Assembly: GCA_937872925.1 (NCBI GenBank)
Contig: CALMUT010000016.1
Location: 1 to 64,000, forward strand
Length of the DNA: 64,000 nucleotides
Source: an uncultured Myxococcales bacterium
GTDB taxonomy: Bacteria; Myxococcota_A; Polyangia; Polyangiales; Polyangiaceae
Direction: 5' to 3'
Position 1 is the first letter of the stretch; each line of letters starts with the position of its first letter. The translations under genes and the position numbers were made by a program. The notes beneath the pieces are model-generated. The model worked only from the letters and a program-made list of their open reading frames with translations. It did no database searches and was not told the DNA's origin. This document shows, one piece after another, positions 4,445-24,186 of the stretch.

Positions 4445-5185
4445 CTACGGCTCAACAAGCGCTGCGAAATCCATCCAACGCACGTTGACCTTACGTGGCT
4501 CGGCGTCGCGGCCGCGGCGGGCGGCCAAGGACAGCTGATGGTCAGGGGTGGGAGACTGCATTTCGAACTGCCAGTCCGCCGGGTCGTCGCCGAGTGTCGC
4601 GTCGATATCAATGCGGATCGGTCCTTCAACACCGAACGCGAACTTTTCCAAAGGCAACGCAAGCCCCATTCCCCGCGCCTTGATGTAGCTTTCTTTCAAC
4701 GTCCAGTACTGAAAGAAACGCTCCCGCTGTTCGGCTTCGGGCAATGCGAGCATCGCTTCGCGCTCCGCAGCTGCGAACACGCGTTTGCTGACGGCAAGGT
4801 AGTCGACATCGCGGTGCCGCACTTCAACGTCGACGCCACAGTCGATTCCCGAATGCACCAGCACCGCAGCGAGCCCGCGAGTGTGACTGAGATTGAAGCG
4901 AAGTTCCCCAGCGGGGATCGGAGCCGCGATCTCGGGCCGTCCGTGGGGACCCACAGAATAGCGCCAGTCGGCAGGTGGCACATCGGCGTACAGGCTCAAG
5001 GTACGTCGAACCAAGGCATGCGCCACCAAGAACAAGTGGCGGTCGCGCTCGAACAGGAAGCGCCGCCAGCGTGCCGTTTCAACTGGGTCAAGCCAGCTGG
5101 CCAGTGTCTCGAGAGTGCGCGCATCCCGCAATTGGTCGACGTCGCACAACCAAACGTGGAGCTCGTCACCTAGCCGCTCTGTCAT
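4445..5185 (-). CDS. Sfp-type 4'-phosphopantetheinyl transferase of the PUFA operon
   Basis: 246 residues. Converts apo-ACP to holo-ACP by moving phosphopantetheine from CoA to the ACP serine. Sfp/AcpT-type motifs are present: NLSHT (98-102), GVDVE (Asp119, Glu121, magnesium ligands) and WTLKESYIK (Trp161, Lys164, Glu165, Lys169). Its start overlaps the pfa3 stop by 4 bp (ATGA), so it is translationally coupled and almost certainly serves the three ACPs of Pfa2. This is the role of PfaE in marine bacteria and of the transferase used with myxobacterial pfa1-3 clusters. Confidence 0.92.
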   Translation of the reverse strand: MTERLGDELHVWLCDVDQLRDARTLETLASWLDPVETARWRRFLFERDRHLFLVAHALVRRTLSLYADVPPADWRYSVGPHGRPEIAAPIPAGELRFNLSHTRGLAAVLVHSGIDCGVDVEVRHRDVDYLAVSKRVFAAAEREAMLALPEAEQRERFFQYWTLKESYIKARGMGLALPLEKFAFGVEGPIRIDIDATLGDDPADWQFEMQSPTPDHQLSLAARRGRDAEPRKVNVRWMDFAALVEP

Positions 5186-8100: not shown

Positions 8101-11100
8101 CCAGCCGCAGGGCTGCAGCGCGGCTTCCAGCAGCACGGCATAGGGCATCGTGCGGTTGCCGTTTTCGTCGAAGTACCACGCGTCTTCCGGCACGTCGTAC
8201 TCGGCTACAACCTCCGCGCCGGCCTTGGGCTCACCCATCTTGCCGCTCACGGACGCGATCCGCGTCATGAAGTGGTAAGGCGGGCCGGGCAAGCGCGCGC
8301 CACGGCGGTGGCCGTCGAATACTCGGTAAATCGGGAACGCCTTGCTGGGCTTGCCCCAGGCGCAGCTCAGCAGCGACTCGTAGCCGAAACTGAACGCCTC
8401 GCCCTCGGGGCTGAGGGCAATGGCGACGGGCTTTGCTTCGGTGTGATCGCCAAGGATTTCTGGATGGCTCTCCAAAGGAAAGTCCGGCGCGAGGCGCCAG
8501 CCAACCCGTTTGGCGTGAAACGCCTTCAGACCATCGACGGTGCACAGCAAATCCGCGTAGATCGTCGGCTCGGGCCCCGCGACGATCTCCTCTACGAAGA
8601 CTTCGTAACTCAGCTCCTTGCTCTCTGGCGTGACTTGACCGCGACAGCGCATTTCGATGGGCTCGCCCGGCACCGGCTTGAACGACCAAGCGTCGCGCTT
8701 GAGCGTGTAACCCAGGGAGGCCAAGTAGAAGCTCAGAGCCTGCACGCAACCTTCGAACATCAAGGTGCCCGGCATGCACGGGTCGTTCTTGAAGTGACCG
8801 TCAAAGTACCAGTCGTCAGAGCTGATCTGAGTCCTTGCTTTCAAATAGCCACGCCCCCAGGGACCGCCGGCCGGATCGAAGTCGACCACCTCGTCCAAGA
8901 GCAGCATGCGTCCGGTCTGAATGCGTGGACTCTGTGTGTGCGTCTGACTCAATTCGAAGCCCACCCCAAAGCAGTCCCAAGCGCGACCCTCGGCAAACGC
9001 CTGCACTTGCTCCCGGCTGAAGCTGCGGTGCAGCGTGAGCTTTTCCGGCGCGTCCAAGCGCGGGTTGTCGATGACCTCGGCGCCTTCAGGGGTCCAGACG
9101 ATGCCCTCGGACTCGGCCAGTTCTTTATCGCTGAAGAACCCGGCCTGGCCCTCGCGTACGGCAAGGCGCACGTCGCCGTTGATGCGACAGTCGTAGTGAA
9201 AGAAGAACAAGCGCACGTCCTCATGACGGGCGTGGCCGTCGACGTGGATGTCGTATTGCAGGGTATCGCCCGGTGCAGGCAGATCGCCTTCGTAGGTGAG
9301 AGTGCAGCCAAGCAGACGATAAACACGCTCGCCCTTGTTCAGAAAGTCCGCGCCCATCCAGCTGATCAACATGAGATCCGCTTGCCCGCTCTCGATGAAG
9401 ATCCCGGCGGGCATGCGGCCTTGATTCAGGTACCAGGAGTCTGAGCGCACGTCGGTTTCGGTCCAAATGGTGCCCTTAGCCGCGACCCCCGGCTCCGCAT
9501 CGATCCCCGTGACTCGATCCGCCAGCAGCAACGGCGGCTCAGGCATACGCACTTGGCGTGCGTACGCGTCTTGTTTCGCAAACTGCGCCCCGAAGATGTC
9601 GGAGATCTTGCCGCTCGAGTTCACCTCGAGCTGGGCGCGGCTGAAGGTCGGCCCCCGAGGCGGCGGCGCAGTGGGCGCATACTTAGCGGGGGATGGTCCG
9701 TGCAGGGCCGCCGGGGCCAGCGCCGTGGGCGTGGGCGGAACGGGCGGCGACGCGGGCGGCTGCACGAATGTCGGCTCCGGCACGTCCGCGCGTCTCATCT
9801 GTGCGGGCGCCAGCGCGGGCTGTGCCTCGGCGACGGGAACGGGCGCTTGCGCGCCGGCAAACGCCATGCGCTGCAGACTGGCCTGTGTTGCGAGAAAACG
9901 CTGGTGGACCTGCGACTGATCCTGAAGGAAGCGCGTGTGGATCTGGGCAAGAAACGCAAATGGCGTCACGGCGGGTTCAGATGCGACGTCATGCGCTGCA
10001 GGCGCGGGGCCGAGCGCGGCGGGCGCGGGCGCGGACGGCAGCGTCGCGACGGCAGAGGAATGCGGAGCGGCGGCGGGCTGAGCTGGAAGATCGGAGTCTG
10101 GCGGGCGGCTTGCCACAACGAACTCGGAATCGAAAATGGGCGGGAGTGGTGGAGCGGGTTGCATGAGCTGGATTCCGTTGTCGGGTGCGGCGCCGCGCCG
10201 TACGGGAGCCGGGTGCGATGGCAGACGGCGCGTGGTCGCAGTGCGGGGCGCGGGGATCGGTGCATGGCCTGCCAAGCGTTTGAGCAATGGATCTGGGTCC
10301 ACTGCGACCCCGGCGGCGATCAAGGCTGCGACTACGTCGAGCGCTTGGGCGCCGCCGCGGCCACGCCGGTCAAGGTGCGTGACGACCGCGCTGCGCATGC
10401 GCTCCGGGCCAAGGATCTCGCGGATCCAGCGGCTGCAGGCGGCGCCCGGACCGTGCTCGATGAAACTCCGCACGCCATCGGCCCAGGCGCACTCCACCAT
10501 TTTCGGGAAGTCGAGCTGGCGATGCGCTTGGCCCAAGATCGCCTGCGCGCAGAGTTCCGTGTCTGGGTTGTATGCCCCGTCCAGACCGCCTGAGTAGAAG
10601 CGGACCCCAGGAACGGCGTGGGTCTCGCGGCGGTGCGCAGCGAGCCACGCTTCGCGCACGTTGTCGAGTTCCGGGACATGCACCACGAGGTTGTAGTCGA
10701 GGGGGCGACAGCGTTCTGGGCCGAGGCGTTCGACCACCCGGGCGCAAGCCGCAGCTTCACCACCGATGACGCAGTCGACGGGCGTGTGCACAATTGCGAG
10801 ATGCACATCAGACTCTGCGCGTAGTGCCGCACGGACCTCGTCCACATTCGCCAGCACCGACCACATTGCCCAGCGTGCATCCGCGCCCCAGAGCCGCTTG
10901 ATCACACCAAACTCGCCGCTGAGCTCTCGCTCGAATAGGCCTGCGGTCATGCAGTCGGCACGCATTCGGTCCATGTCGCGCCAGGCGCCAAACGCAAAGA
11001 GCGAGTTGCTTTCCCCGGAGCTGTAGCCGAGCGCCGCCTGCGGCTTCAGTCCCAGCATTCCCAGGCTCAGCTCCGCATGAAGCTGGCTCAAGGAAGAAGC

Positions 11101-13848
11101 GCCCCAGAGCCGCTCCGACGCGCTGCCGCTCGGCAGGGCTGCATCATGGGCCCAGCGCATCGCGTCGCCAAACCCCTCAAAGCGCTGCGCCAAGGCATCG
11201 CCGAGCTCGGGCAGATCGAGCAGCAGCTCGCGGCCCATGCCGTGGTACGCCGAGCCAGCCGACGTGAAAACGAACGCAAGCTCGCCGAGAACCGGCTGCG
11301 CTCTGAAGTGCACGCCCTCGCCTGGCGGAGCGCCCTTCTCGATGTGCGCACGCCCTCGCTCGCGGCGCTGAGCGAGCTGGGACTCGCCGTCGGCGACGAT
11401 CACCAGGCGCGCGGGTTGCGCTTCTGCCTGAAGGTCCGCGCAGCACCCAGCGACTAGCGCCGCCAACACTTCGTCGGCGTTGGCTCCTTGGAACAACTGC
11501 AGTGTCGGCGCTTCACCTTCGTGCTGCGTGCGGCAGTGCTCGTCTTCGCGCAAGACTGCGCGGTGCGCGCCGTTGCCGTCCATGGGTCGGACGCGCACTT
11601 CGGCTCGACGCATGGTGCTGCGAAGCCACGGCGAGCCGTCCGCATGCCGACGATGGTGCAGGCTGAGCGTTGCCGCAGCTAGATGCAGCAAACCTGATGC
11701 GGCGTGCGCATGCCCGAAGTGCGGCGTCAGAGCACAGTCGTCGGGTCCCCAAACCGTCACGCCGTCGAGCGTCGTCTCACCTTCGGCCAAAACGCCATGG
11801 TCCTCGATCACGGCGTACACACGGTCCCCGGCCGCGCGGGCGTCACGGAGTCGCTTCAGCACCAGGACAACCGCTGCATCGCCGGCAATCTGGCGTGCGC
11901 CGTCGAGACAGCCGTGCGCAGCTGCCTGGTGCGTCGGTTCACAGCTGAGGTCAACTGCTCCCACCAACGCAGCGTCTAGCTCCAATCGCTGCAAGCGACC
12001 CACTGCAAGCTCAAGCGCCACCAGTCCAGAGGCTTCCTCCGCAGAGACGGTGCAGCTGCCACCGCCCAGATCCAACAGGCGGTTCAGGCGATTTGCCGCC
12101 ATATTCGGCATCGTACCGATCACCCCCGCAGCGCTAAGGGGATCGACGAAGCCGTCCCCGTGGCGCCAGCGCGCACCGTAGCGCGCCACCTCCATGTCCA
12201 CGCCCATGCCGACGTAGATCCCGGTGGTCTCCCGGGGCAAGGCCCGCGTCTCGGCCACAGCTTCGCGCCCGACCCGCATCACCAAGAGCTGCTGCGCGAG
12301 GGTTTGATCCAAATCCTTCGGAGGAATGCCCAGGGTCGCAAGATCCAGTTCGAAATCCGGGCAGCGTCCCTGCAAGGTGCCGTCACTGCCGGTGCTCAGT
12401 CGCTGCTCGCCGCAGAAAAGCGCCCGGGTGAAGTCCATGCGGTCAGCGGCGCCCGCTGCGGTGATGCCAAGCCCGACGATCGCAATCGAGGGACGCTCGG
12501 CACTCGCTGCGGACAAAGGACGCTCGGCACTCGCTGCGGGCGAAGCGGTTCGCGCGGCCGAGTCGTGCTCCTCGACGATCAGGTGAGCGTTGTTACCACC
12601 GAAGCCAAACGCAGACACTGCGGCGCGCCGCGGACCGTCACTATTCCAAGCTTCTGCTCGGGAAAGTAGCCGGAAGGGTGTTCCCAACAATGCAGGCGTT
12701 GGCTCGTCGGCGTGCAACGTCGCTGGGCGCGTGCGGTGACGCATCGCCTCTAGCACTTTGATCAGTCCGGCGACTCCGGCCGCAGTGATCAGGTGTCCCA
12801 GATTGGATTTCAGGGACCCGATCGGCAGGGGCTCGGCGCGCCCGGCGTAGACCTGGGCCATGCTCTCGAGTTCCGTGGCATCTCCCAAGGTCGTGCCCGT
12901 GGCGTGGCACTCCATCAGGGAGATATCCGATGCGGTCAGCCCGCTCTGCTCAAGAGCGGCGCGCATCGCGCGCGCCTGGCCTTCCGCCGAAGGCACGAGT
13001 GCGCCCTTGCCGCGCCCGTCGTTCGACAGGCCCACGCCGCGGATCACCCCCAAGATCCGATCCCCCGCTTGCTCTGCGTCGGTCAAGCGCTTGAGGGCGA
13101 CGAAGCCAGCGCCCTCTGCCGGCACCAGGCCATCCGCCGCGGCGTGGAAGGGGCGACTTCGCCCCGTCTTGCTCAGGGCCTGAAGTGCAGAAAAGCCAAC
13201 GTGAATGAAGAGATCATCCGCACAGTTCACCGCGCCGGCGAGCACCAGGTCTCGTCTGCCCTCAGCGAGCCAGTCGCAGGCGATCTTGATGGCATAGAGC
13301 GACGAGGCACACGCCGCATCCAGAGCGAAGCATCCGCCGCCAAGACCGAGGGCACGCTCGAGCAGCAGCGCCGGGAGCCCTGAACAGAATCGATTGCGAG
13401 CTGCCGGGCGCGCTTCGGAGCCGAGCCAAACACTCTCAGCAAATGCGCTCAGCTCCGCCGACGGGAAACCGAGGTTTCCAAACACCGCACCCACCCGTCT
13501 CCGCTCGCCACGGTGCTGGCTATCGCTCAGGGCCTCTCGCGCTGTATGAAGCAGCCACTGAAATAGCGGATCTAGCTCCAGGATTTCCGAGGCGGGCAAC
13601 TCGAATCCGGCTGGGTCGAAGATGTCGCTGAAGCCGCGAACGTAGGAGCCCCGGTCCGACCAAGTCGCGTCGGGTCGCGGGCGGCTCGGTGGGCACACGA
13701 CCTGCTCCGGCGCGACCCGCCAACGGTCGGCGGGCACGGCGCTGATCGAATCGCGCTCCGCGTCGACCAGATCCCAAAGCTGCGCTGGGCTCGACGCTCC
13801 AGGCAAGAGACAGGACCGGCCGACAATGGCAATCGGCACGAATGGCAT
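5182..13848 (-). CDS. pfa3: Pfa3, PUFA synthase subunit (KS-CLF-AT-DH pairs-DH'-AGPAT)
   Basis: 2888 residues, iterative type I PUFA synthase. Domains: ketosynthase 1-430 (DAACAS with Cys180; His315, His352); chain-length-factor-like KS about 452-770, where the cysteine position reads Glu605; acyltransferase about 855-1170 with GYSSGES; a Pro/Ala linker with an amphipathic helix (1296-1330); two double hot-dog FabA-like units, 1435-1785 and 1865-2185. In each unit the first half lacks the histidine (YLNQGRMP; YFDENGNRTMP) and the second has it (GHFKNDPCMPG, His1685; AHFFQDPVQPG, His2081). A PKS-type DH' follows at 2210-2460 (DHCPTWNRPALP). The C-terminal acyltransferase (2595-2805) resembles acylglycerol-phosphate acyltransferase, with NHQVQIE for NHx4D and HPQGTRS for the EGTRS block. 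It starts 6 bp after pfa2. Confidence 0.93.
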   Translation of the reverse strand: MPFVPIAIVGRSCLLPGASSPAQLWDLVDAERDSISAVPADRWRVAPEQVVCPPSRPRPDATWSDRGSYVRGFSDIFDPAGFELPASEILELDPLFQWLLHTAREALSDSQHRGERRRVGAVFGNLGFPSAELSAFAESVWLGSEARPAARNRFCSGLPALLLERALGLGGGCFALDAACASSLYAIKIACDWLAEGRRDLVLAGAVNCADDLFIHVGFSALQALSKTGRSRPFHAAADGLVPAEGAGFVALKRLTDAEQAGDRILGVIRGVGLSNDGRGKGALVPSAEGQARAMRAALEQSGLTASDISLMECHATGTTLGDATELESMAQVYAGRAEPLPIGSLKSNLGHLITAAGVAGLIKVLEAMRHRTRPATLHADEPTPALLGTPFRLLSRAEAWNSDGPRRAAVSAFGFGGNNAHLIVEEHDSAARTASPAASAERPLSAASAERPSIAIVGLGITAAGAADRMDFTRALFCGEQRLSTGSDGTLQGRCPDFELDLATLGIPPKDLDQTLAQQLLVMRVGREAVAETRALPRETTGIYVGMGVDMEVARYGARWRHGDGFVDPLSAAGVIGTMPNMAANRLNRLLDLGGGSCTVSAEEASGLVALELAVGRLQRLELDAALVGAVDLSCEPTHQAAAHGCLDGARQIAGDAAVVLVLKRLRDARAAGDRVYAVIEDHGVLAEGETTLDGVTVWGPDDCALTPHFGHAHAASGLLHLAAATLSLHHRRHADGSPWLRSTMRRAEVRVRPMDGNGAHRAVLREDEHCRTQHEGEAPTLQLFQGANADEVLAALVAGCCADLQAEAQPARLVIVADGESQLAQRRERGRAHIEKGAPPGEGVHFRAQPVLGELAFVFTSAGSAYHGMGRELLLDLPELGDALAQRFEGFGDAMRWAHDAALPSGSASERLWGASSLSQLHAELSLGMLGLKPQAALGYSSGESNSLFAFGAWRDMDRMRADCMTAGLFERELSGEFGVIKRLWGADARWAMWSVLANVDEVRAALRAESDVHLAIVHTPVDCVIGGEAAACARVVERLGPERCRPLDYNLVVHVPELDNVREAWLAAHRRETHAVPGVRFYSGGLDGAYNPDTELCAQAILGQAHRQLDFPKMVECAWADGVRSFIEHGPGAACSRWIREILGPERMRSAVVTHLDRRGRGGAQALDVVAALIAAGVAVDPDPLLKRLAGHAPIPAPRTATTRRLPSHPAPVRRGAAPDNGIQLMQPAPPLPPIFDSEFVVASRPPDSDLPAQPAAAPHSSAVATLPSAPAPAALGPAPAAHDVASEPAVTPFAFLAQIHTRFLQDQSQVHQRFLATQASLQRMAFAGAQAPVPVAEAQPALAPAQMRRADVPEPTFVQPPASPPVPPTPTALAPAALHGPSPAKYAPTAPPPRGPTFSRAQLEVNSSGKISDIFGAQFAKQDAYARQVRMPEPPLLLADRVTGIDAEPGVAAKGTIWTETDVRSDSWYLNQGRMPAGIFIESGQADLMLISWMGADFLNKGERVYRLLGCTLTYEGDLPAPGDTLQYDIHVDGHARHEDVRLFFFHYDCRINGDVRLAVREGQAGFFSDKELAESEGIVWTPEGAEVIDNPRLDAPEKLTLHRSFSREQVQAFAEGRAWDCFGVGFELSQTHTQSPRIQTGRMLLLDEVVDFDPAGGPWGRGYLKARTQISSDDWYFDGHFKNDPCMPGTLMFEGCVQALSFYLASLGYTLKRDAWSFKPVPGEPIEMRCRGQVTPESKELSYEVFVEEIVAGPEPTIYADLLCTVDGLKAFHAKRVGWRLAPDFPLESHPEILGDHTEAKPVAIALSPEGEAFSFGYESLLSCAWGKPSKAFPIYRVFDGHRRGARLPGPPYHFMTRIASVSGKMGEPKAGAEVVAEYDVPEDAWYFDENGNRTMPYAVLLEAALQPCGWLASYVGCALTIETDLLFRNLDGTGTQHVEIFEDASCLRTTAQLTAVSNSAGMIIVSFDVEVHQSSTLVYDMKTVFGFFPPSAFDNQVGLPVSDAQRELLVAPSDFLVDLDTRPDVFYRGGARLPNSKLDMLNRIEGFWPEGGKAGLGAMRGVKDVHASDWYFKAHFFQDPVQPGSLGIEALIQLLQCFMLQTGMADGIEGPRFEPIAIGLPMTWKYRGQVVPKNKRVTSVIEITEVGRDDRGPFAVCDASLWVDGIRIYDASKLAMRIVAGAAERQDKQRHVPLGDVAAGGSVPRGAIVIDPQRDRWIQDHCPTWNRPALPLMHVVELLAGGVEGKVTGLKDVQVKGWLDFTGPRSFHTTCEARGTATHVTLWSTPRDDLNAKATEVASARVLTGDYKPPPAALTPFKAPALEDPYASGALFHGEAFHLLERAARSDSGVSSVLDAGAGAVPIGKLHPALLDAALHGIPHDALHSWSSQISEDKVAYPARILELELYAPTPTAGPVRCEVRFDGFLAAPDLPRFRVQLSADGRVWAEFSLVEACFPKGPLGAAAPSERRAFLRDKHFVPGVRLSRSDGAETRLSQPEVEASDWMPGTIVGIYGTTDAERIAVLEHVAAREGIHPAHVPGALPLNAFAVHSVREGRDVVVRDTDPARRTLDPTPLRAFWDQALGMSDPWLGRDLWEGLLKKYVRRVVLADPEAFRSLEARSALFLGNHQVQIESLLITNILSGLTGRSVVTMANAKHEKRWIGWILRHMFSHPGSRDPGSILYFDQGRPESMFEIISGLKPQLSRGDRSLFLHPQGTRSQSCRETTTKLSSVFLDLALELDLPIVPIRFSGGLPVTPVVGKLEFPHGHAAQDYFLGRPIEAEELRALPYAARAAHVLDAIAALGEPAEDERPNSPDIAFSDAVTEWQRQTQTSEVEAVFFRILEQVSEPSAETERLLDGIRAGAVLSDPWLARLASRLSGKGA

Positions 13849-13854
13849 GGGACC

Positions 13855-16800
13855 TCACGCCTGCGGAAGCAGGTGGACCTCCACGCCTTCGAGCTCGGCA
13901 ATGACCTCGCCGAGACCATTGCGGAAGACCACGTCGGAGACCGTGCGCTGACCCGAGGCATCCCGTCCTGTCAGAGTGCAGTGCAGCGGACCGTCGCTAG
14001 GCCGGTCCGTGAACGTACGCACCTCGCCGATGCCCGTCGGCAGAGATGCGCGCCCCAGCACATGATGACTCCAGAGCAGCGCCAGCTGCAAACCGCCGTC
14101 GAGTGCCCGGGGGTCCGTGCACCAGCTCTGGGGCCAGCCCGCCTCAAGCACGCCGCTGAGCGCAGCGGCGATCCCGCTTTGGCTCACGCCATCGATGCTG
14201 CGGATCATCTGAAAGTCCGGACCGTGAAAGAGCACCTGCCCGTCATAGACCACACGATCCCCCCAAGCCTCGAGGCCCAGATCGTTCGCTCCACCTTTGC
14301 TGGGCGCGGGGCGCGTCTCCACCATCTGAGCTGTGGCCCGATAGTACGGCGTGCCCGAATCGTCGACCAGCTCGAGATCCAGAATTGCACCGCTGCCGTT
14401 GGAGCGTAGCGCGCAGTTGACCACCAACCGCAATTCGTCTTGCTCGAAGTTCTTCAAGGGAATGCCCCGCAAGACCTTCAGATTCTGAATGCCGCTGAGC
14501 ACCAAGTTCGGGCGAAACGCGCGCGCGGCGCGGCTGAACCACTCGATGGCCACCACCACCGGAACCACAGGTGTGCCGTGTATGCTGTGGTCCGCCAAGA
14601 ACGGGTGGCTCCTGCGATCGACCACCACTTCGAGGGAGAGGCCAGGCGCCCCCGCCTTCGGGGCCAGCGCCTCGGGACGCGGCTCCCCACCGAGCACCAA
14701 TTCAACCTGCTCAGGCTGAGAGCCGGAGAGTTCGTCGACCAACATGCGCGCGCCCACTTGCAGCGGAATCAGCGGCACGCCCATGCGCTCGAAGTGAAGC
14801 TTCAGCTCTGGACTCACCATGCCTCCTTCCCAGGGGCCCCACCCCAGAGACTTCACCAGGCAGCCCGTTCGGGATCGCGCTTCGGCCCAGGCCACTTTGT
14901 TGAGGACTTCGTTGGCCATGGCGTAGTCGGATTGACCGACATTGCCGCAGCGGCCCGCCACGGAAGAGAAGAAACACAACAGCTTGATCGGATCCGCCTG
15001 CGTGGCGTGCAGAAGCGCGCGCAGCCCGGCGACCTTCGTGTCGAACACGCGATCGAAGTGCTCCGTGGTCTTGTCCACGAGCAGTTTGTCGTGAATGACG
15101 CCCGCGCCGTGCACGATGGCAGCGATGGGTCCCCAATGCGCGCGCACATCGTGCAGCGCGGCTTGCAACGCATCCGTGTCCGTAACGTCTACGGGAACGT
15201 AGCACGCCTCGGAACCCGTCCCTTCGATGGCCCGCAGCGTGGCACGGATCTCGCGCGCCGCAACGATTCCGCTGACCTGCGCGCCTAGTTCCGTCGGACT
15301 CGGCATCCTCCCGGCAGCGCGCGCTTCAGCGAGCAGCGCGCGCTTGAGCTCGGCGTCCCCTAGGATGCCCGTGACACAGGGAGGCTCTGCCACTAGCGCC
15401 GTGCGCCCGAGGAGCACGAAGCGCAACTTTGCTTGAGTGGCGAGCTCGATCAGAGTCGCGGCGGTGCCGCCCCGAGCCCCGCCGGATGCGACCACGACAT
15501 CCCCGTCCCGCCACGGGCTGGCCCCCACCGCCACCGGAACCCGAACGCTATCTAAGACCAGACGGCGGCCATCGACGGGCAGCCCCACATCGAGCTCTGG
15601 CCCGCCCAGCAGCAGTTCGTCGGCCAGGGATTTCGCGAGCACTTCGCTGCTATTGCCGCCGCGCTCCAGATCGATGGCCTTGGTGGCCACATCAGACCAT
15701 TCCTGCGCCACGCTGCGCGTCAATCCCGCAAGTCCGGACAGCCATGCACGCACGCTTTCGATGTGGGTGGTGGCAAAGGCGCCACCGGTGTCCTGTACCG
15801 TCACGAAAACGCCCTTGCCCGAACGCTGGCGAGCGAAGGATTGCGCGGCGGCGAAGGCCTCACGATTGACCTGAACGGCTTCGTCAATATCGGTGACAGG
15901 TCGCATCCCACCCAGGAACAGCAGAGCGTCCAACCCTGGAGACGACGCGGGGTCGACGAGCTCCGCGCGCACGCCGCGGGCACACAGCTCCTTGACGAGG
16001 GTGGCCCCGAGATCCGTGCCATCCGACGTAACGCCCACGCGCTGTGCACCGAGCAGACCACGCATCGCCATGCCGATAGCGGGTCGCTCTTGGGTGGTCA
16101 GCGCGAAGCGTCCGAGACTCGGCGTGGTGACGGGATCGGCGCCGGGTGTGGCTCTTTCCGTTGCCCGTACAGCGCTAGCGCCCGGCCGCGCGGGTGGTGG
16201 AGCGTTCGGCTCCGGGGGACCACCGCCGAGCAGGCCCTGCATGTACTCGATGATCTCACCGAGGGTCTGCAGCTTTGCCATCACTGCCGTATCCACCTCG
16301 GGCAATTCCGGCGCTTGCTCGCGCATCGCCGACAGGATCTCCACTCGTTTGATGGAGTCGATCCCGAGGTCGCCTTCCAGCTGCATCTCTGCGCTCAGCA
16401 TCTCCGTCGGATAGCCCGTCTTGTCCGACACGATCTGCAGCATCAAGCCATGCAGATCCCGCACGGGCGCTGCCAGCTGAGGCGCGCGTTCCGCCGGACC
16501 GGGCGGCGCGGAGCCGAGCAGTCCCTGCATGTACTCGATGATCTCACCAAGGGTCTGCAGCTTGGCCATCACCGCGGTGTCTACCTCGGGCAACTCTGGC
16601 GCTTGCTCGCGCATCGCCGACAGGATCTCCACTCGTTTGATGGAGTCGATCCCGAGGTCGCCTTCCAGTTGCATCTCTGCGCTCAGCATCTCCGTCGGGT
16701 AACCCGTCTTGTCCGACACGATCTGCAGCATCAGCCCGTGCAGATCCCGCACGGCAGCTGCCGGCTGAGCCGGGCTCACGGAAACGCTTGGAGCTGCATC

Positions 16801-19800
16801 GGCCGGCACGGAGCCAAGCAGTCCCTGCATGTACTCGACGATTTCACCAAGGGTCTGCAGCTTTGCCATCACCGCCGTGTCCACTTCGGGCAGCTCCGGT
16901 GCTCGCTCGCGCATCGCTGACAGGATCTCGACCCGCTTGATCGAGTCGATCCCGAGATCGCCTTCGAGCTGCATCTCCGCGCTCAGCATCTCCGTCGGGT
17001 AGCCCGTCTTGTCCGACACGATTTGCAGCATCAGCCCATGCAGATCGCGCACAGGAACCGCAGCCGCAGCAGGACGCGTCCTCTCGACAGCAGCCGGCGG
17101 CGGCACCACGACTGGCGCCACGGACGCTGCAGGCGCGGGGGGGTGGGTCGGCGGGGCCGCGTGGGTCGGTGCGGGTGCAGGCGCGGGCGGCGGCGCGGCG
17201 AGCGCAGACGCCATAGGTTGCAGGGTCGGCGTCACGGGAAGCGGAAGCCCGCTGATGGCACCGAAGCCGTGTTCGATGGTTTGGAGAAAGGCCATGTGGC
17301 TCTGCGCCATGGCGGCCATGTACGCGGAATGTGCTTCCGCGGTGTGGCGCTGCGCCTCCTGATAGGCATGCGCCCAGCCGGGCTCCGCGCGGTGGGACAT
17401 GGGCGAGCCGGCCGCGTTCAAGGGCGCCGCGGCGACCGCAACCGGCGGCGCTACAGGAATCAATGCCTTCCCGTCGAATGCGACACCGCCGCCGTTGCTC
17501 GCTGCGGCACGTCCAGCGCCGTTGCTCGGCGCGGTGAGGGCAGCGCCCTCGTTGGGCGCTGCGGATTGCGAAGGCGCTTGCGGCGCCACAGATCCCGCGG
17601 ACTGCCCCGCTGCCACTCTGGCAACCTCGGGCCGTGGACCGTTCGGCCGCGGCAGCTGCTGCGCTCCGCCCGGAGGCGGGTACGGCTTGCCGTAGTTCGC
17701 TCCGTCGAGGCCAATGCTGAGCTTCGGCTTGGCAACGGTACGAGGATCCGACGCAGCCGCGTAGTCACTCCACAGCGCCTCCAGACGCAGTGAGTGCCCC
17801 GCGGCGACGAGAGCGCCGAGGGCGTCCAAAAGCGCAGTTCTGGAACTGACACCCTTCCGGTCCAGGCTGACAGCTTGATGCGGATGGCCTTCAAGGATCC
17901 CTTTGATCAACCCGGTGAGCACTGCGCCGGGACCGACCTCGACGAACGTGCGAACGCCGTCGGCGTACATCGCTTCGATCATTCCTACGAATTGCACCGG
18001 GCGCGCCAATTGCTCGGCGAGCAGCGCGCGTATCTTCTCGGGCGCTTCCGGATAGGGCCCAGCGAGGGTGTTCGAGTACACGGGGAGCGACGCCGTCGCG
18101 AAAGACTGCTCGGTCAGGAAGGCAGATAGCCCGGCGCTGGCGTCAGCGACCACTTCCGAATGGAAAGCCGTAGCAACGGGAAGGCGCCGAGCTTGAATGC
18201 CCTCGGCAGCCAGCTTGGCTTCGACGGCTTCGATCGCCGATGTGATGCCTGACAGCACGACTTGCGCAGGACCATTGTGGTTGGCGACGACTACATTTTC
18301 ACCGAACTTCTCAAGCAAAGCACGCACCTCGTCGAGGGGCCGCGGCACTGCACACATCGCGCCTGGATGCACGGCGGCCTCGGCCATGAGCTCGCCGCGA
18401 CGACGCGCCACTCGGAGCATCTGACTCGCGTCGAGCACGCCCGCGGCGTGCAGCGCGGTCACTTCGCCGAAGCTGTGGCCCGCGACGCAACTCGGCTTGA
18501 GCTCAAGCTCTCCGATCAGGTTCAGTAGCGAGAGGCTTGAGCAACCGATGGCGGGCTGCGCCCACTCGGTGTCGGACAATCTGCGAGCTTGTTCCGCCGC
18601 GACAGCATCATCGAAAGCGGTGCGAGGAAATACAACCTCTTGCAGCCGCAAGTCTCCGTCTCGCACGATTTCCGCCGCTGTGTCCCAGGCAGCAAGAGCG
18701 GCGGAGAAGTGCATGGCAAGATCGGCACCCATGTCGATGTACTGGCTACCTTGACCTGGGAACACGAATGCAAGGCGTCCCTCGGGCCGGCCCCACCCCA
18801 CATGGATGCCGTTCGGCGTCGACAATGCCTGATTTGGTTTTGATTCGATGAGTTGCGCGGCTTGATTGAGTTTCTGCGCCAGGTCCCCGTCGCTGTCGGC
18901 AACGATCGAAAGGCGATGCTCAAACAGCGCGCTGCCGCGGCTCGTCGCCGCTAGCCACTTCAGCATTCCGGGCTGTGCGCAATCCCGTGCGACCTCTTTG
19001 GCTTTTGCGGCGAGCGCGGCGCTGGAGTCCGCGGAAAGCACCACCAACTCGGCGCCGGCGGCTCGCAAGCGAGGCGCCTCTGGACGCTTGCCTGGCGGCG
19101 GAACAAACTCTTCGAGCGCCAAGTGGAAGTTGGAACCGCCAAAACCAAAGGCGCTGACCGACGCGCGGCGCGGGTGATCGGCGGCGCGCACCCAGGGCCG
19201 TGCGCGCGTCGTGAGGTGAAAGGGGGAAGACTCAAGCTGCAGCGCCGGATTGGGACGATCGATCTTGATCGTCGGCGGGAGCACTTTGTGGTGCAGCGCC
19301 ATCACGACTTTGAAAAGGCCAGCCGCACCCGCCGCTGCTTTGGCGTGACCGATCTGCGATTTCACCGATCCCAGTTGGCACCACTGGCGATCCTGGCGTG
19401 CGGTTGCGCCGAAGACCATCTCGAGTCCGCCAAATTCCGCCGCGTCTCCTGCTTTCGTTCCGGTGCCGTGGGCTTCGACGAGCTCCACGCTGTCTGGGCC
19501 GTAGCCCGCTTGAGTGTAGGCCCGGGCCAGGCTTTTGGCCTGTCCGGCGGAAACCGGCGCATACACGCTTTTGGAGCGTCCATCCGATGAAGCGCCTACT
19601 CCGCGGATGACCGCGTAGATACGGTCGCCGGCACGCTCGGCGTCCACAAGCCGCTTGAGCGCAACCATGCCGAGGCCCTCGCCGAGCATGGTTCCATCCG
19701 CCTGATCGCTAAAGGGGCGGCAGTCTCCGCTCATGGACAGCGCTGGCGTCTTCGAAAAACACATGAACATGAAGATGTCGTTCATGGTGTCCACGCCACC

Positions 19801-20505
19801 GGTGATGACCAAATCCGAGTCACCGAGCTGGAGTTCGTTCACGGCCATGGAAAGCGCGCTCATGGTCGACGCGCAAGCCGCGTCGCTGACGCAGTTGGTC
19901 CCCCCGAGGTTCAAGCGATTGGCGATGCGCCCCGCGACCACATTCCCCAGCAGGCCGGGAAACGTACTTTCCTTCCAGTCGGTGTAGTGCGCAGCGATGC
20001 GTTCACAGACGTCGACCACTTCGCTTTCGGGTAGTCCGGCCTCGCGCAGCGCCTTGGTCCAGACAGGGCGCTGCAAGCGACTCACCATGGAACCGAGCAG
20101 CTCCTGGCCAGACGTGACACCGAGGATCACAGAAGTGCGCGCGAGGTCGAGCCGCTGGGGGTCGCCTGCGGACGCGTCCTCGAGCACCTTCTGCGCGACG
20201 ATCAACGCGAGCAACTGCGAGGTATCCGTTTCCGGAACGAGTGCCGGCGGCACCCCCCAGTGCATCGCATCAAAGTCCACCTTTGGCAGAAACGCGCCCC
20301 GCTTCGCGTAGGTCTTGTCCGGTACGCTCGGATCGGGATCGTAGTAGTCGTCGATCAGCCAGTGGCTCGGCGGCACATCCGTGATGAGGTCAGAGCCCGC
20401 TAGAATGTCGGACCAAAACCCGGTGGCGTCGATGGATCCTGGAAAAAGCGCGCTGACACCGACGACGGCAATGGCGGGACGTGGAGGTGTGTGTGATTCA
20501 TTCAT
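13855..20505 (-). CDS. pfa2: Pfa2, PUFA synthase subunit (KS-MAT-3xACP-KR-DH)
   Basis: 2216 residues from ATG 20505. The frame is open further upstream but would overlap pfa1, and the KS begins right after this Met. Domains: ketosynthase 8-465 (DAACAS with Cys211; EAHGTGT His346; His387); malonyl-CoA:ACP transacylase 578-880 (GQGSQ; GHSFGE, Ser678); Pro/Ala linker with a helical segment at 1046-1080; three ACPs at 1152-1230, 1252-1330 and 1348-1426, each with LGIDSIKR (Ser1188, Ser1288, Ser1384); ketoreductase 1665-1920 (GGARGG; SSVAG then Tyr1861, Asn1865); DH' 1955-2213 with a perfect HxxxGxxxxP (His1973, Gly1977, Pro1982) and DGGLQ (Asp2136). It starts 17 bp after the pfa1 stop and elongates and reduces the chain held on its ACPs. 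Confidence 0.94.
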   Translation of the reverse strand: MNESHTPPRPAIAVVGVSALFPGSIDATGFWSDILAGSDLITDVPPSHWLIDDYYDPDPSVPDKTYAKRGAFLPKVDFDAMHWGVPPALVPETDTSQLLALIVAQKVLEDASAGDPQRLDLARTSVILGVTSGQELLGSMVSRLQRPVWTKALREAGLPESEVVDVCERIAAHYTDWKESTFPGLLGNVVAGRIANRLNLGGTNCVSDAACASTMSALSMAVNELQLGDSDLVITGGVDTMNDIFMFMCFSKTPALSMSGDCRPFSDQADGTMLGEGLGMVALKRLVDAERAGDRIYAVIRGVGASSDGRSKSVYAPVSAGQAKSLARAYTQAGYGPDSVELVEAHGTGTKAGDAAEFGGLEMVFGATARQDRQWCQLGSVKSQIGHAKAAAGAAGLFKVVMALHHKVLPPTIKIDRPNPALQLESSPFHLTTRARPWVRAADHPRRASVSAFGFGGSNFHLALEEFVPPPGKRPEAPRLRAAGAELVVLSADSSAALAAKAKEVARDCAQPGMLKWLAATSRGSALFEHRLSIVADSDGDLAQKLNQAAQLIESKPNQALSTPNGIHVGWGRPEGRLAFVFPGQGSQYIDMGADLAMHFSAALAAWDTAAEIVRDGDLRLQEVVFPRTAFDDAVAAEQARRLSDTEWAQPAIGCSSLSLLNLIGELELKPSCVAGHSFGEVTALHAAGVLDASQMLRVARRRGELMAEAAVHPGAMCAVPRPLDEVRALLEKFGENVVVANHNGPAQVVLSGITSAIEAVEAKLAAEGIQARRLPVATAFHSEVVADASAGLSAFLTEQSFATASLPVYSNTLAGPYPEAPEKIRALLAEQLARPVQFVGMIEAMYADGVRTFVEVGPGAVLTGLIKGILEGHPHQAVSLDRKGVSSRTALLDALGALVAAGHSLRLEALWSDYAAASDPRTVAKPKLSIGLDGANYGKPYPPPGGAQQLPRPNGPRPEVARVAAGQSAGSVAPQAPSQSAAPNEGAALTAPSNGAGRAAASNGGGVAFDGKALIPVAPPVAVAAAPLNAAGSPMSHRAEPGWAHAYQEAQRHTAEAHSAYMAAMAQSHMAFLQTIEHGFGAISGLPLPVTPTLQPMASALAAPPPAPAPAPTHAAPPTHPPAPAASVAPVVVPPPAAVERTRPAAAAVPVRDLHGLMLQIVSDKTGYPTEMLSAEMQLEGDLGIDSIKRVEILSAMRERAPELPEVDTAVMAKLQTLGEIVEYMQGLLGSVPADAAPSVSVSPAQPAAAVRDLHGLMLQIVSDKTGYPTEMLSAEMQLEGDLGIDSIKRVEILSAMREQAPELPEVDTAVMAKLQTLGEIIEYMQGLLGSAPPGPAERAPQLAAPVRDLHGLMLQIVSDKTGYPTEMLSAEMQLEGDLGIDSIKRVEILSAMREQAPELPEVDTAVMAKLQTLGEIIEYMQGLLGGGPPEPNAPPPARPGASAVRATERATPGADPVTTPSLGRFALTTQERPAIGMAMRGLLGAQRVGVTSDGTDLGATLVKELCARGVRAELVDPASSPGLDALLFLGGMRPVTDIDEAVQVNREAFAAAQSFARQRSGKGVFVTVQDTGGAFATTHIESVRAWLSGLAGLTRSVAQEWSDVATKAIDLERGGNSSEVLAKSLADELLLGGPELDVGLPVDGRRLVLDSVRVPVAVGASPWRDGDVVVASGGARGGTAATLIELATQAKLRFVLLGRTALVAEPPCVTGILGDAELKRALLAEARAAGRMPSPTELGAQVSGIVAAREIRATLRAIEGTGSEACYVPVDVTDTDALQAALHDVRAHWGPIAAIVHGAGVIHDKLLVDKTTEHFDRVFDTKVAGLRALLHATQADPIKLLCFFSSVAGRCGNVGQSDYAMANEVLNKVAWAEARSRTGCLVKSLGWGPWEGGMVSPELKLHFERMGVPLIPLQVGARMLVDELSGSQPEQVELVLGGEPRPEALAPKAGAPGLSLEVVVDRRSHPFLADHSIHGTPVVPVVVAIEWFSRAARAFRPNLVLSGIQNLKVLRGIPLKNFEQDELRLVVNCALRSNGSGAILDLELVDDSGTPYYRATAQMVETRPAPSKGGANDLGLEAWGDRVVYDGQVLFHGPDFQMIRSIDGVSQSGIAAALSGVLEAGWPQSWCTDPRALDGGLQLALLWSHHVLGRASLPTGIGEVRTFTDRPSDGPLHCTLTGRDASGQRTVSDVVFRNGLGEVIAELEGVEVHLLPQA
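16228..17052 (-). repeat. Three tandem ACP-coding repeats inside pfa2
   Basis: Three copies of an ACP module of about 79 codons, separated by 16-21 residue Pro/Ala linkers. At protein level copies 2 and 3 are identical across the module, and copy 1 differs at two places (RERAPEL for REQAPEL, GEIVEY for GEIIEY). The DNA differs mostly at silent sites. This points to recent duplication or gene conversion. Multiple ACPs are typical of PUFA synthases and their number scales output in studied systems. Confidence 0.9.
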
Positions 20506-20522
20506 GGCAGTTGTCCAATCGG

Positions 20523-22139
20523 TCAAACGAGGGGCCGGGGGCGAAAGTCGAACGCGGCGTGGGGCACAGGCACACCAAAGCTGCGCAGTTGCTGGGCGCG
20601 AGTGATCACCGCGGCGCCCTCCATCAGGTTCAATGCGATTTGCACGACGCGGCGGTTTTCTGGTTTCGCTAGGAAGGTGCCGGAAGCCCAAGCGTTGAAC
20701 GCTCCCATCGCTGGCCCACACCAGATTTGATAGTCCGCGACGCGCTCCTGCGTTCCGTTGATCGCCCAGCGACTGGAGAGGCCCAGGTAGGCGCGGAACA
20801 CCAATGCCATCTTGTGATGGGGATCCGCTTCTGCCTTGGCGATCTCGCCGGGGTCACGCTTGGCCCAGAACTCTGCCGTGGATCTCCAGGCGTCTGCGAA
20901 GCCGGCACGCAAGATGTCGGTTTCGACCTTTGCGGCAATGGGCCCGGGCACTTCGTCCCAGCTGCGGTGCGCCCGGTAGAGCTCTCGCAGCTTTCGGGCG
21001 CGGCTGGCAAACAACGTCCCGCGCTTCAAGACCTGTACCTCGACGCCTTGTTCGAACATGTCGGCGGCGGGCGCCATGATCACGTCGCCCAGCCCGGCCT
21101 GAGCCAAGAGCTGCTTTCCAGCGGAGTGCAATCCGGACTCGACCGCCGCCTGGTTGACGGAGCCTGTGAGCACGTAGGCCGCTCCCAGGGCAAAAGCTGC
21201 TGCCACCGCGCTGGGCGTTCCCAAGCCACCGGCGGCGCCCACGCGGATCGGTCGATCGTATTTGCGCTCAGCCTGGATCGCGTCGCGAAGGGAGGCGATC
21301 GTCGGGTAGAGCGCAGCAAGCGGACGGTTGTCCGTATGGCCGCCGGAGTCCGACTCCACCGTGATGTCCTCGGCCAGCGGGATGCGGGCAGCCAGGCGGG
21401 CTTCTTGCTCTGTCAGTTCACCGCTGGCTACCAGTTGTTCGAGCAGCGCCTGCGGCGCGGGCTCCATGAACGGTCTTGCAGTTCCTGGGTGGGAGATCTT
21501 CGCGAATAGAAAGTTACGTCGCAGGACCCGGCCAGTCTTAGACTCGGAGAGCCCGGTGCATGCATAGCGCACGACATGTTTGCTGAGCGCGATGTACGCG
21601 GCAGCGGAAACCCTGCGCACGCCGCGGCGAATGTACAAATCGGCAACGGCAGCTTCCAGGCTCGGTTCGTTGGGCGAGTGGATCAGGTTCGCGCCCCAGG
21701 GCAACCCGCCGGAATCAGCACGACCGAGCGTAGACTCCAGAACATCCAGCGCCTGCTCGACGCGTTCGAGGGAAAGCCCGGCCGCGCCAAAAAAACCCAA
21801 CATGCCGGCGCGCGCCATGGCGATGACGATGTCCGTAGAACCAATGCCATTGGCCATGGCGCCCGCGATGTACGGAAAGCGCACTCCGTGCACTTCTGCG
21901 AAAGTGCGATCCCCCAGCCATTCCGGGTAGGTCGGGGGTAGCGTGGCAAGCAGTGGCCATGACGGCGCGCCATTGGGCGCTCCGGCGCTAGCGCCGCCGT
22001 GCGCTACGCCCAGCCCGCCGGACTCAGGGTCTTGCACGACGTAGGTCGTGTCGCGCACATTGTGAACGCTGCGCAAGAGCTGCGTCTGGCTGAAGCTTGG
22101 GGTTTGGTTGCTTGCGGTCCACACACCGATTGATCGCAT
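20523..22139 (-). CDS. pfa1: Pfa1, trans-acting FMN enoyl reductase (PfaD type)
   Basis: 538 residues, the usual length of PfaD/omega-3 PUFA synthase enoyl reductases. It is a nitronate-monooxygenase-like TIM barrel. Barrel motifs include AGAMANGIGSTD (93-103), the PfaD-typical DSGGHTDNRP (264-273), and the FMN-phosphate loop GAAGGLGTP (301-309) with VLTGSVNQ (323-330). It reduces the enoyl intermediates of the growing chain when full saturation is required. First gene of the leftward operon: a promoter-like element and a palindrome lie directly upstream, and the divergent gene encodes a FabR-like repressor. Confidence 0.93.
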   Translation of the reverse strand: MRSIGVWTASNQTPSFSQTQLLRSVHNVRDTTYVVQDPESGGLGVAHGGASAGAPNGAPSWPLLATLPPTYPEWLGDRTFAEVHGVRFPYIAGAMANGIGSTDIVIAMARAGMLGFFGAAGLSLERVEQALDVLESTLGRADSGGLPWGANLIHSPNEPSLEAAVADLYIRRGVRRVSAAAYIALSKHVVRYACTGLSESKTGRVLRRNFLFAKISHPGTARPFMEPAPQALLEQLVASGELTEQEARLAARIPLAEDITVESDSGGHTDNRPLAALYPTIASLRDAIQAERKYDRPIRVGAAGGLGTPSAVAAAFALGAAYVLTGSVNQAAVESGLHSAGKQLLAQAGLGDVIMAPAADMFEQGVEVQVLKRGTLFASRARKLRELYRAHRSWDEVPGPIAAKVETDILRAGFADAWRSTAEFWAKRDPGEIAKAEADPHHKMALVFRAYLGLSSRWAINGTQERVADYQIWCGPAMGAFNAWASGTFLAKPENRRVVQIALNLMEGAAVITRAQQLRSFGVPVPHAAFDFRPRPLV

Positions 22140-22155
22140 GGGATTCCCGACATCG

Positions 22156-22171
22156 GTGTACGGGTGTGCAC
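22156..22171. promoter_or_regulatory. Putative FabR-like operator in the pfa1 leader
   Basis: GTGTACGGGTGTGCAC is an imperfect palindrome (arms GTGTAC and GTGCAC). It matches the palindrome in front of the regulator gene at 13 of 16 positions. It lies 16 bp upstream of the pfa1 start codon and downstream of the predicted -10 element, a position where a bound TetR-type repressor would block transcription. Its layout recalls FabR/DesT operators. Binding is inferred, not shown. Confidence 0.65.
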
Positions 22172-22192
22172 CGAAATACTGGAGAGTCGGGG

Positions 22193-22221
22193 ACTATCCT
22201 CACCGAAGCCCGCCGGGTCAA
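22193..22221 (-). promoter_or_regulatory. Predicted sigma-70-type promoter of the pfa operon
   Basis: Read on the minus strand: TTGACC (22221-22216), a 17-bp spacer, then GATAGT (22198-22193). The -35 matches five of six consensus positions and the -10 four of six, with ideal spacing. Transcription would start near 22186, giving a leader of about 45 nt that contains the palindrome at 22156-22171. Confidence 0.5.
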
Positions 22222-22288
22222 CGCGGGTTCTGATTTCGTGATGCATCTGTGACGAAGGGGAGGCTTTCCCGCGCACCGCTGATCAATG

Positions 22289-22304
22289 GTGTACGCTTGT
22301 ACAC
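22289..22304. promoter_or_regulatory. Perfect palindrome in front of the regulator gene (putative autoregulatory operator)
   Basis: GTGTACGCTTGTACAC has perfect 6-bp arms around a GCTT spacer. It abuts the ribosome-binding site GGAAGG (22305-22310) of the TetR-type gene starting at 22318. The GxACGCTTGTxC core closely resembles what I recall of DesT/FabR sites. With the related site near pfa1 it forms a two-operator divergent region. Confidence 0.68.
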
Positions 22305-22317
22305 GGAAGGCCCCCGA

Positions 22318-22953
22318 ATGAGCAGCCGTGCCGCGCAAAAAGAGCAAACCCGCCGAGCCATTGTCGACGCAGCCCTACGCCTGAGTTCTGCCCGTGGATT
22401 TGCGAGCGTGAGCCTGCGCGCCATCGCCAAGGAGGCAAATATTGCCCCAAACGCCTTCTATCGACACTTCAAGGACTTGGACGATCTGGGGCTGGCCCTG
22501 GCAGATCAGGTCGGGTTGTCCTTGCGCCAACTGGTCCGCCAAGCCCGCCGACGCGTGCTCGACGCCGGTGACGGCAGCGTCGTGCGCAACTCTATTCAGA
22601 TGTTCATGGAGTTCGCAGAGAACGACTCCGATCTGTTTCGGCTGCTCCTGGGCGGGGGGGCCGGCGCGTCCCCGGCGTTTCGTCGAGCCATTCAGCTGGA
22701 GGTCAAGCGTTTCACCTCGGATCTGGTGGAAGACCTGATCCGCGAGGCAGAAACGTCACGCCGCCCCATCGCCCACCCAGAGCTCGCGGCGGAAGCAATG
22801 GTCACGATCGCGTTCAACCTCGGAGCCAACGCCCTCGACTTGCCATCGGATCAACGCCTCGCCGTATTGGAGCGCATCGTCGCAGAAGTACGCATCATCA
22901 TGCGCGGCGCCGAGGCAATGGCAGCCGGCTGGGGGTCGCCCGCGAAGGACTGA
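22318..22953 (+). CDS. TetR-family repressor of the FabR/DesT type
   Basis: 211 residues from ATG 22318, chosen because GGAAGG sits 7 bp upstream and the Tet HTH begins soon after; an upstream GTG at 22249 would place the palindrome inside the gene. The HTH (SVSLRAIAKEANIAPNAFYR) and the following stretches GLSLRQLVRQARRRV, VRNSIQMFMEF, FRLLLGG and AEAMVTIAFNLGANAL resemble E. coli FabR as I remember it. FabR and DesT sense the ratio of unsaturated to saturated acyl thioesters and repress unsaturated fatty acid genes. Divergent from pfa1 with paired operator-like palindromes, so it is likely the local regulator of PUFA synthesis and of itself. Confidence 0.82.
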   Translation: MSSRAAQKEQTRRAIVDAALRLSSARGFASVSLRAIAKEANIAPNAFYRHFKDLDDLGLALADQVGLSLRQLVRQARRRVLDAGDGSVVRNSIQMFMEFAENDSDLFRLLLGGGAGASPAFRRAIQLEVKRFTSDLVEDLIREAETSRRPIAHPELAAEAMVTIAFNLGANALDLPSDQRLAVLERIVAEVRIIMRGAEAMAAGWGSPAKD

Positions 22954-22959
22954 TCCAAT

Positions 22960-24186
22960 TCAGGGGCATAGATTTGTGAGTGCAGCGAACTCGCCGAGCA
23001 GTTCGGTGTAGGCCTCGATGCGCCGAGAGCCGTGGGTGCCATCGGTGTACTGGTACATAATGCGGTGGCTGGCAGGCTGGATGTTGCCCAAGAAGAACGC
23101 CTCCGCATCCGAATCCGTGTTGCCGAACCCATAGTCGACGAAGAGTCCCTTGCCGGTCATGCCGTCAACTTCAGGGCGTTTGAACCCGACCGCTGCGGAG
23201 CCAAGGGCCCCAAGCCCTGTGGTCGTACGCACGACGCCAAGGGGGTAACCGTGTTTCTTGATGAACTCCCGGGTGCGGCCCACGAGGAATTCCGGACGCG
23301 CAGTCAAGTACATGGGGCGGTACCCGCGCGCCGCCAAGAGCGAGAGCGCGGCCGGGGCGTCGGTGTTGGAGTCCGAAACGCTCGCCGTCAATAGCGCGCT
23401 GTATTCCTCGGTCTCCTTAGTCGTGAGGGTACCGTCGACGTCCGTCACGAAATAGTGCGTGTCGGGGGGAACCCCCTGGTTGTAGGGGCCCCCACCCTCA
23501 AGACCCCCTGCGCCCCCCGGGGGGGGGGGGTGGCCACCGCCCCCGGGTTTTTCGGGGCCGGGGTTTTTGAAGTCCGCGCGCCCGCCGCTATCCGTAACGC
23601 CATACACCGTCGGGTGCGTGCCATCTTTCGGCGTGGTGATCGCCGTCCCGAGCTTCTCCCAGTTCGCGCCGCAGTCGCGATTCAGCCAAATGTCGACTTC
23701 CTCGCCCTTGAGGTCCTTGTCGATCACGCCGTACGCGAACTTGCCGATCACCCACTGCTCTTCGTTCTCGAGCAACACCAGGTCGCGGCCGCGATGATTG
23801 TCAAACCCCGTCGCGGTGATCAGCGTGGACCCTATCGTGTCTTTCCAGCTGCGCTTCGGCCCGACGTTCGGCAACGCCCCGTTGCAAGCAGGCATGGGCA
23901 GACAGCCCGTCGCGGCGCCAGCCCCACCACTGCCCCCCCCACCCGCCTGCCCGGCGCCGCCGCCTGGCGCGCCGCCGCTGCCCCCGGACGGCAGCCCGCC
24001 GCCGCCAAAATTCCCCGCGCCGCCGCTGCCTCCGCTGGGGAGGGCACCACCGCTGCCTCCCGAGGCGGATGCGCCACCCAGAGAACTGCCGCCGCCCGCA
24101 GGAGTGAAGCCTTCGTCCGACGCCGCGTCGCCACAGCCCAAGGCAAGGAAAAGGCCCCCCAGTTCCAAGATTCGGCGGATTTGCAA
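22960..24186 (-). CDS. Lipoprotein with lipin-like (LNS2) phosphatase domain
   Basis: 408 residues. Signal peptide with lipobox LALGC (Cys18), a Gly/Ser/Ala-rich linker to about 92, then a beta-rich domain (about 95-205) followed by an LNS2/HAD domain from about 243. The catalytic DxDxT motif is VTDVDGT (Asp249, Asp251, Thr253), as in lipin/Smp2 phosphatidate phosphatases. Later blocks (YLTARPEFLVGRT, VDYGFGNTDSDAEAF) also fit. It probably acts on a phospholipid or other phosphoester at the cell surface; the substrate is unknown. A C12/G6 homopolymer encodes residues 219-226 and is a slip-prone spot just before the catalytic domain. Confidence 0.8.
   Translation of the reverse strand: MQIRRILELGGLFLALGCGDAASDEGFTPAGGGSSLGGASASGGSGGALPSGGSGGAGNFGGGGLPSGGSGGAPGGGAGQAGGGGSGGAGAATGCLPMPACNGALPNVGPKRSWKDTIGSTLITATGFDNHRGRDLVLLENEEQWVIGKFAYGVIDKDLKGEEVDIWLNRDCGANWEKLGTAITTPKDGTHPTVYGVTDSGGRADFKNPGPEKPGGGGHPPPPGGAGGLEGGGPYNQGVPPDTHYFVTDVDGTLTTKETEEYSALLTASVSDSNTDAPAALSLLAARGYRPMYLTARPEFLVGRTREFIKKHGYPLGVVRTTTGLGALGSAAVGFKRPEVDGMTGKGLFVDYGFGNTDSDAEAFFLGNIQPASHRIMYQYTDGTHGSRRIEAYTELLGEFAALTNLCP
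23513..23530. repeat. C6G12 homopolymer run inside the LNS2 lipoprotein gene
   Basis: On the plus strand six C are followed by twelve G. In the minus-strand gene this reads as twelve C then six G, coding PPPPGG. Runs this long are prone to polymerase slippage and to sequencing error. A change of one base would frameshift the gene before its catalytic Asp residues. Confidence 0.9.

Follow-up and report, generated by a model that had tools for sequence, protein, structure and literature searches.

A FabR-family regulator and paired palindromic operators facing a PUFA synthase operon in an uncultured Myxococcales bacterium

Results

A PUFA synthase operon and a divergent TetR-type gene

The window, by which we mean the whole stretch of 64,000 nucleotides analysed here, comes from an uncultured Myxococcales bacterium and contains four pfa genes that run in the same direction from 22139 down to 4445. 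The first gene, pfa1 (20523-22139, minus strand), encodes a PfaD family enoyl reductase (TIGR02814, 597.6 bits against a cut-off of 449). It is followed on the minus strand by pfa2 (13855-20721), encoding a PfaA-like PUFA synthase subunit (TIGR02813, 1503 bits, cut-off 1010), and by pfa3 (5182-13848), whose PfaC-like product matches models of a PfaA-type ketosynthase and a FabA dehydratase. A pfaE-like phosphopantetheinyl transferase gene (4445-5185, minus strand; HetI, AusB and AcpT models, all matched below their cut-offs) overlaps the end of pfa3 and is probably the last gene of the operon. Because of the gene spacing, pfa1-pfa2-pfa3-pfaE looks like one operon of 17.7 kb, and its PfaD, PfaA-type and PfaC-type subunits together with a phosphopantetheinyl transferase-like gene are those of a Pfa PUFA synthase operon.

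Divergent from pfa1 lies a gene for a TetR family protein of 211 residues (22318-22953, plus strand), with matches to the NCBIfam model NF008402 and to DesT, which we call fabR. The start codons of pfa1 (22139, minus strand) and fabR (ATG at 22318, plus strand) are separated by a gap of 178 bp. At its other end fabR converges with a gene at 22960-24186 (minus strand) that has PITM/LNS2 domain matches and possibly encodes a lipid enzyme; such domains occur in phosphatidylinositol-transfer proteins and lipin-like phosphatases.

Two operators and one promoter-like site in the gap

An earlier note on this DNA had described two matching palindromes in the 178-bp gap, one for each start codon, and this observation was confirmed. 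Operator 1, GTGTACGGGTGTGCAC, occupies positions 22156-22171, 16 bp ahead of the pfa1 start, while operator 2, GTGTACGCTTGTACAC, occupies positions 22289-22304, 13 bp ahead of the fabR ATG (neither site is assigned to a strand). The two are identical at 13 of 16 positions and both have the form GTGTAC-N4-GTRCAC, with arms that make a perfect 6-bp palindrome in operator 2 and match in 5 of 6 arm pairs in operator 1. The position class of operator 2 is also kept in a related locus, L092, where a site lies 18 bp ahead of the ATG.

A pattern search of the whole genome (9,389,512 bases) found the exact GTGTACN4GTRCAC only at operators 1 and 2. The looser pattern GTGNACN4GTNCAC occurred at 8 places, two of them the operators, and a reversed control pattern at 6. 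On a quick look none of the six remaining looser matches was upstream of a lipid gene, and these sites are at background level. Within the gap the family motif was observed twice against 0.004 expected from dinucleotide shuffles of the gap.

The only promoter-like site of the region is TTGACC-N17-GATAGT, the predicted pfa1 promoter (22193-22221, minus strand), with the -35 element TTGACC at 22221-22216, a 17-bp spacer and the -10 element GATAGT at 22198-22193. An identical site is present in the related loci L228 and L229, and near-identical sites are present in L090 (CATAGT) and L091 (CATGGT). Operator 1 starts 21 bp past the predicted -10 box in the window; in L228 and L229 the corresponding distance is about 18 bp. 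The pfa1 transcript is expected to begin near 22186 (minus strand). A dimer at operator 1 would span roughly +15 to +30 and would hinder promoter escape.

The regulator resembles FabR and DesT

Matched to NF008402, the NCBIfam model for FabR, the fabR product scored 228 bits (cut-off 151) over residues 1-201; its score with TetR_N was 49.9 bits. Its N-terminal helix-turn-helix contains the recognition region SLR..A..A.I.P..FYRHF, of which FYRHF is invariant across 19 aligned homologues. The best PDB match by sequence was DesT (3LSJ, E=3e-23). An AlphaFold2 model (pLDDT 86.5) has an all-helical fold, and the top four Foldseek matches to it were all DesT (3LSJ, 3LSR and 3LSP; TM 0.76-0.87); among them are structures of DesT bound to palmitoyl-CoA and of DesT with oleoyl-CoA on the desCB promoter. 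Identity to DesT is about 34%, the same figure being given for the ligand domain. No other FabR is encoded in the genome, where the next TetR-type match to the model reached 31 bits. The resemblance to FabR proposed earlier was therefore borne out by a model score of 228 against 151 bits and a DesT-like predicted fold; the sequence supports assignment to the FabR family, and the structural model supports a DesT-like fold.

The unit is conserved at eight loci

In a survey of 184 genomes of the order, PfaD was found over the cut-off in 63 and FabR over the cut-off in 7, and FabR was divergent from pfaD in 4 (the window, G096 with locus L092, G097 with L093, and G116 with L090). An unplaced metagenome-assembled genome, L091, has the same divergent pairing. 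A search of the phylum returned three further FabRs of at least 65% identity (L227, L228 and L229). Adjacency to pfaD and two palindromes were predicted for these before their sequences were looked at; the adjacency was found in 3 of 3 and at least one exact palindrome in each, with one exact copy per locus and the second copy degenerate or absent. The phylum group thus comprises 8 divergent FabR-pfaD loci. The fetched FabR relatives near 41% identity had no pfaD nearby.

The motif GNGNACN4GTNCNC occurs within 300 bp of pfaD in at least one exact copy at 8 of 8 loci, with 12 copies in total. Shuffling gave a mean of 0.057 copies for the eight loci, and 1000 shuffles never gave more than 1. Five loci have an operator pair, with spacings of 110, 112, 132, 133 and 138 bp (one member in L091 has one mismatch). 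L229 has a one-mismatch partner 130 bp off, and L228 a weaker partner, read by eye, about 132 bp off. Looping through a fixed helical phase of the operators was considered; the five spacings share no one phase, and looping is therefore not claimed.

As controls, 66 distinct pfaD genes that have no FabR beside them were examined, and their upstream regions (about 26 kb) held no exact copy of the motif. Among these controls is G094; its PfaD groups within the FabR-linked PfaD clade, and no FabR lies near its pfaD. Where operators and fabR have become separated, the pair stays by pfaD: two genes, one of the MarR type and one for a methyltransferase, part it from fabR in L090, and in L093 the interval is about 570 bp. 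The two intervening genes of L090 (677-1932, minus strand; MarR-family and methyltransferase) are co-directional with pfaD and look like an insertion, and the methyltransferase resembles arsenite methyltransferases by eye. Motif and regulator are thus kept together next to pfa1 homologues at all eight loci and the motif is absent at the 66 controls, which is what the earlier note had looked to as a check.

The pairing of FabR with pfaD is not general. Among the 64 pfaD-bearing genomes in the order, about 60 lack a FabR beside the gene, and since most of these relatives do without a FabR-type regulator there, it is not needed for PUFA synthesis. G078, the sole other member of the genus in the set, has neither pfaD nor fabR, and the unit was therefore gained or lost within the genus.

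Residue 46 and the operator arms

Among FabR/DesT proteins, those whose recognition helix has Ala or Gly at position 46 go with GTG..CAC arms, and those with Ser there are mostly paired with GCG..CGC arms (raw counts, 41 T and 0 C for Ala; 18 T and 44 C for Ser). When the set was thinned to clusters under 65% identity, the comparison became 8 of 8 against a mixed set, with p=0.05, and we therefore treat the correlation as suggestive. As such, the trend would favour direct recognition of the operator by the protein. Two proteins of Halomonadaceae (L257 and L258) have Ser46 yet GTG..CAC operators and are exceptions to it.

History of the unit

The eight pfa-linked FabRs form one clade (support 99/98). 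The sister pairs window-L090, L092-L093 and L228-L229 are common to the FabR and PfaD trees, with the deeper branches not resolved; such matching pairs are as expected if fabR and pfaD were inherited together.

In the same phylum, FabR/DesT homologues face reductase genes in G102, G130, G052 and G282, with a desaturase next in G130, and in G108 a homologue lies downstream of a reductase and a desaturase gene. Among the divergent-layout examples G130, G102, G052 and L271, only G130 has a desaturase model match. L271, from a gammaproteobacterium, carries a pair of perfect GTGTACN4GTACAC sites at a spacing of 128 bp (2094-2292) facing a reductase-like gene that by its sequence looks like a DesC-type reductase, and its homologue has the same NA-FYRHF helix as the window protein. 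The operator layout of L271 is nearly the same as that of the window. Distant FabR-like regulators in L042, L044 and L045 (G145, G147 and G146) have paired GTNTACN4GTCTAC-like sites upstream and form a separate group. The desaturase-facing FabRs were rejected as a model for the window itself, because the neighbour here is pfa and no desaturase gene of the genome carries the site.

Since FabR/DesT homologues in the phylum face reductase or desaturase genes, the window looks like a FabR/DesT divergon that moved from desaturase control to a PUFA synthase. We give roughly even chances to a fuller account, in which a single transfer at the root of one PfaD lineage carried the whole divergon over from desaturase to PUFA synthase control, where it now serves as a dedicated acyl-pool sensor that tunes polyunsaturated output, with a change from Ser to Ala at residue 46 and a corresponding one from GCG to GTG in the operator in the window's branch.

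Discussion

The regulator, its operators and their target form a unit that is real and well supported. We think it quite probable that this is a FabR/DesT-type divergent unit with the PUFA synthase operon as its target, taking binding, repression, autoregulation and acyl sensing together. A FabR-family dimer would bind both palindromes. Sitting on operator 1, immediately beyond the pfa1 promoter, it would block transcription of the 17.7-kb operon; on operator 2, which directly precedes the fabR start codon, it would limit its own synthesis. By analogy with the family, long-chain unsaturated acyl thioesters, the products, would strengthen binding and saturated ones would weaken it; PUFA output would therefore track the saturation of the acyl pool, going up when the pool is over-saturated and down when unsaturation is sufficient. 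Direct binding of FabR to the palindromes is strongly indicated by the sequences, and repression and autoregulation are likely. Unsaturated acyl thioesters as the ligand, and the sign of the response, are proposed by analogy: the affinity of E. coli FabR rises in the presence of unsaturated acyl thioesters (PMC11481535), and DesT discriminates saturated from unsaturated acyl-CoAs (PMC8872791), and this published work supports the proposal.

It is rather unlikely that the same regulator, operators and target respond to another effector, with saturated acyl-CoA or PUFA intermediates as inducers, or with PUFA chains not fitting the pocket, so that membrane unsaturation overall is not read. MadR is predicted to have a DesT-like structure and is responsive to saturated acyl-CoAs alone (PMC8872791), and the ligand domain of the window protein is just about 34% identical to that of DesT; however, the FabR family score is well over the curated cut-off and the operator is of the conserved FabR/DesT type.

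We regard it as improbable that the protein regulates unsaturated fatty acid genes (desaturases) at large, with pfa as one among several targets. The genome does have about five fatty acid desaturase-like genes, and in other genomes related regulators lie opposite desaturase or reductase genes, but no exact motif lies near the desaturase genes of this genome, where the exact sites are confined to pfa and the looser ones do not exceed background. The earlier proposal of a dedicated regulator is supported because the genome has no other strong site and no other FabR copy.

FabR/DesT homologues that neighbour desaturases also have sites near their own start, as would be the case for a regulator that mainly controls itself and whose site ahead of pfa1 hardly influences pfa expression. 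This is very improbable, given that the operators remain by pfaD rather than fabR in L090 and L093 and that the pfa1 promoter is conserved, with operator 1 at a fixed distance from it. Short motifs can recur in a 9.4-Mb genome, as the 8 loose matches (control, 6) illustrate, but palindromes that match the form of the E. coli FabR site and are co-conserved with FabR in 8/8 loci and absent in 66/66 controls are hardly conceivable as chance or as sites for an unrelated factor.

Taken together, the proposed FabR/DesT-type control of the PUFA synthase operon suggests a dedicated feedback switch on omega-3 type lipid production. Interest in bacterial PUFA synthases comes from omega-3 production, and little is known about how their producers time their use. 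With regulator, promoter and both operators located to the base, whether PUFA output is tied to membrane unsaturation can be tested directly. Removal of fabR or operator 1 is an obvious route to higher expression. The unit would also show a membrane-homeostasis switch rewired to a new target.

In line with the earlier suggestion that such a control layer is undescribed for PUFA synthases, a search of the openly accessible literature brought up no description of a pfa operon under FabR-type control, and PfaR was the sole pfa-linked regulator named there. PfaR of marine gammaproteobacteria is encoded beside the pfa operon, is MuA transposase-like and is thought to be unresponsive to effectors (PMC4744452). 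It is like the window regulator in being encoded next to the pfa operon and is unrelated to FabR; the regulator adjacent to pfa1 is of the TetR/FabR type and not of the MuA transposase-like PfaR type.

In other bacteria, FabR and DesT adjust membrane unsaturation, and their usual targets are desaturase or fabA/fabB genes. The E. coli FabR, which represses fabA and fabB and belongs to a family that senses acyl thioesters (PMC11481535), has the site AGCGTACACGTGTTCGCT (PMC4273635), whose operator core GNGNACN4GTNCNC is common to the window, and the window protein passes the FabR model. Unlike in E. coli, the arms in the window are GTG..CAC instead of GCG..CGC, the recognition helix has Ala instead of Ser, and the regulator adjoins its PUFA synthase target and is probably self-regulated. 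In Shewanella oneidensis, fabR and the divergent desA share a 144-bp intergenic region that holds a FabR-like palindrome (PMC4273635). The window is similar in that fabR shares a palindrome-bearing intergenic region with a fatty acid gene, whereas the target in S. oneidensis is a desaturase and the fabR promoter seemed constitutive (PMC4273635). The P. aeruginosa DesT, with its divergent desCB operon (and fabAB), has the same family, predicted fold, palindromic operators and divergent layout as the window regulator, which differs in its target, a PUFA synthase operon, in its identity of only about 34% and in its operator, GTGTACN4GTRCAC.
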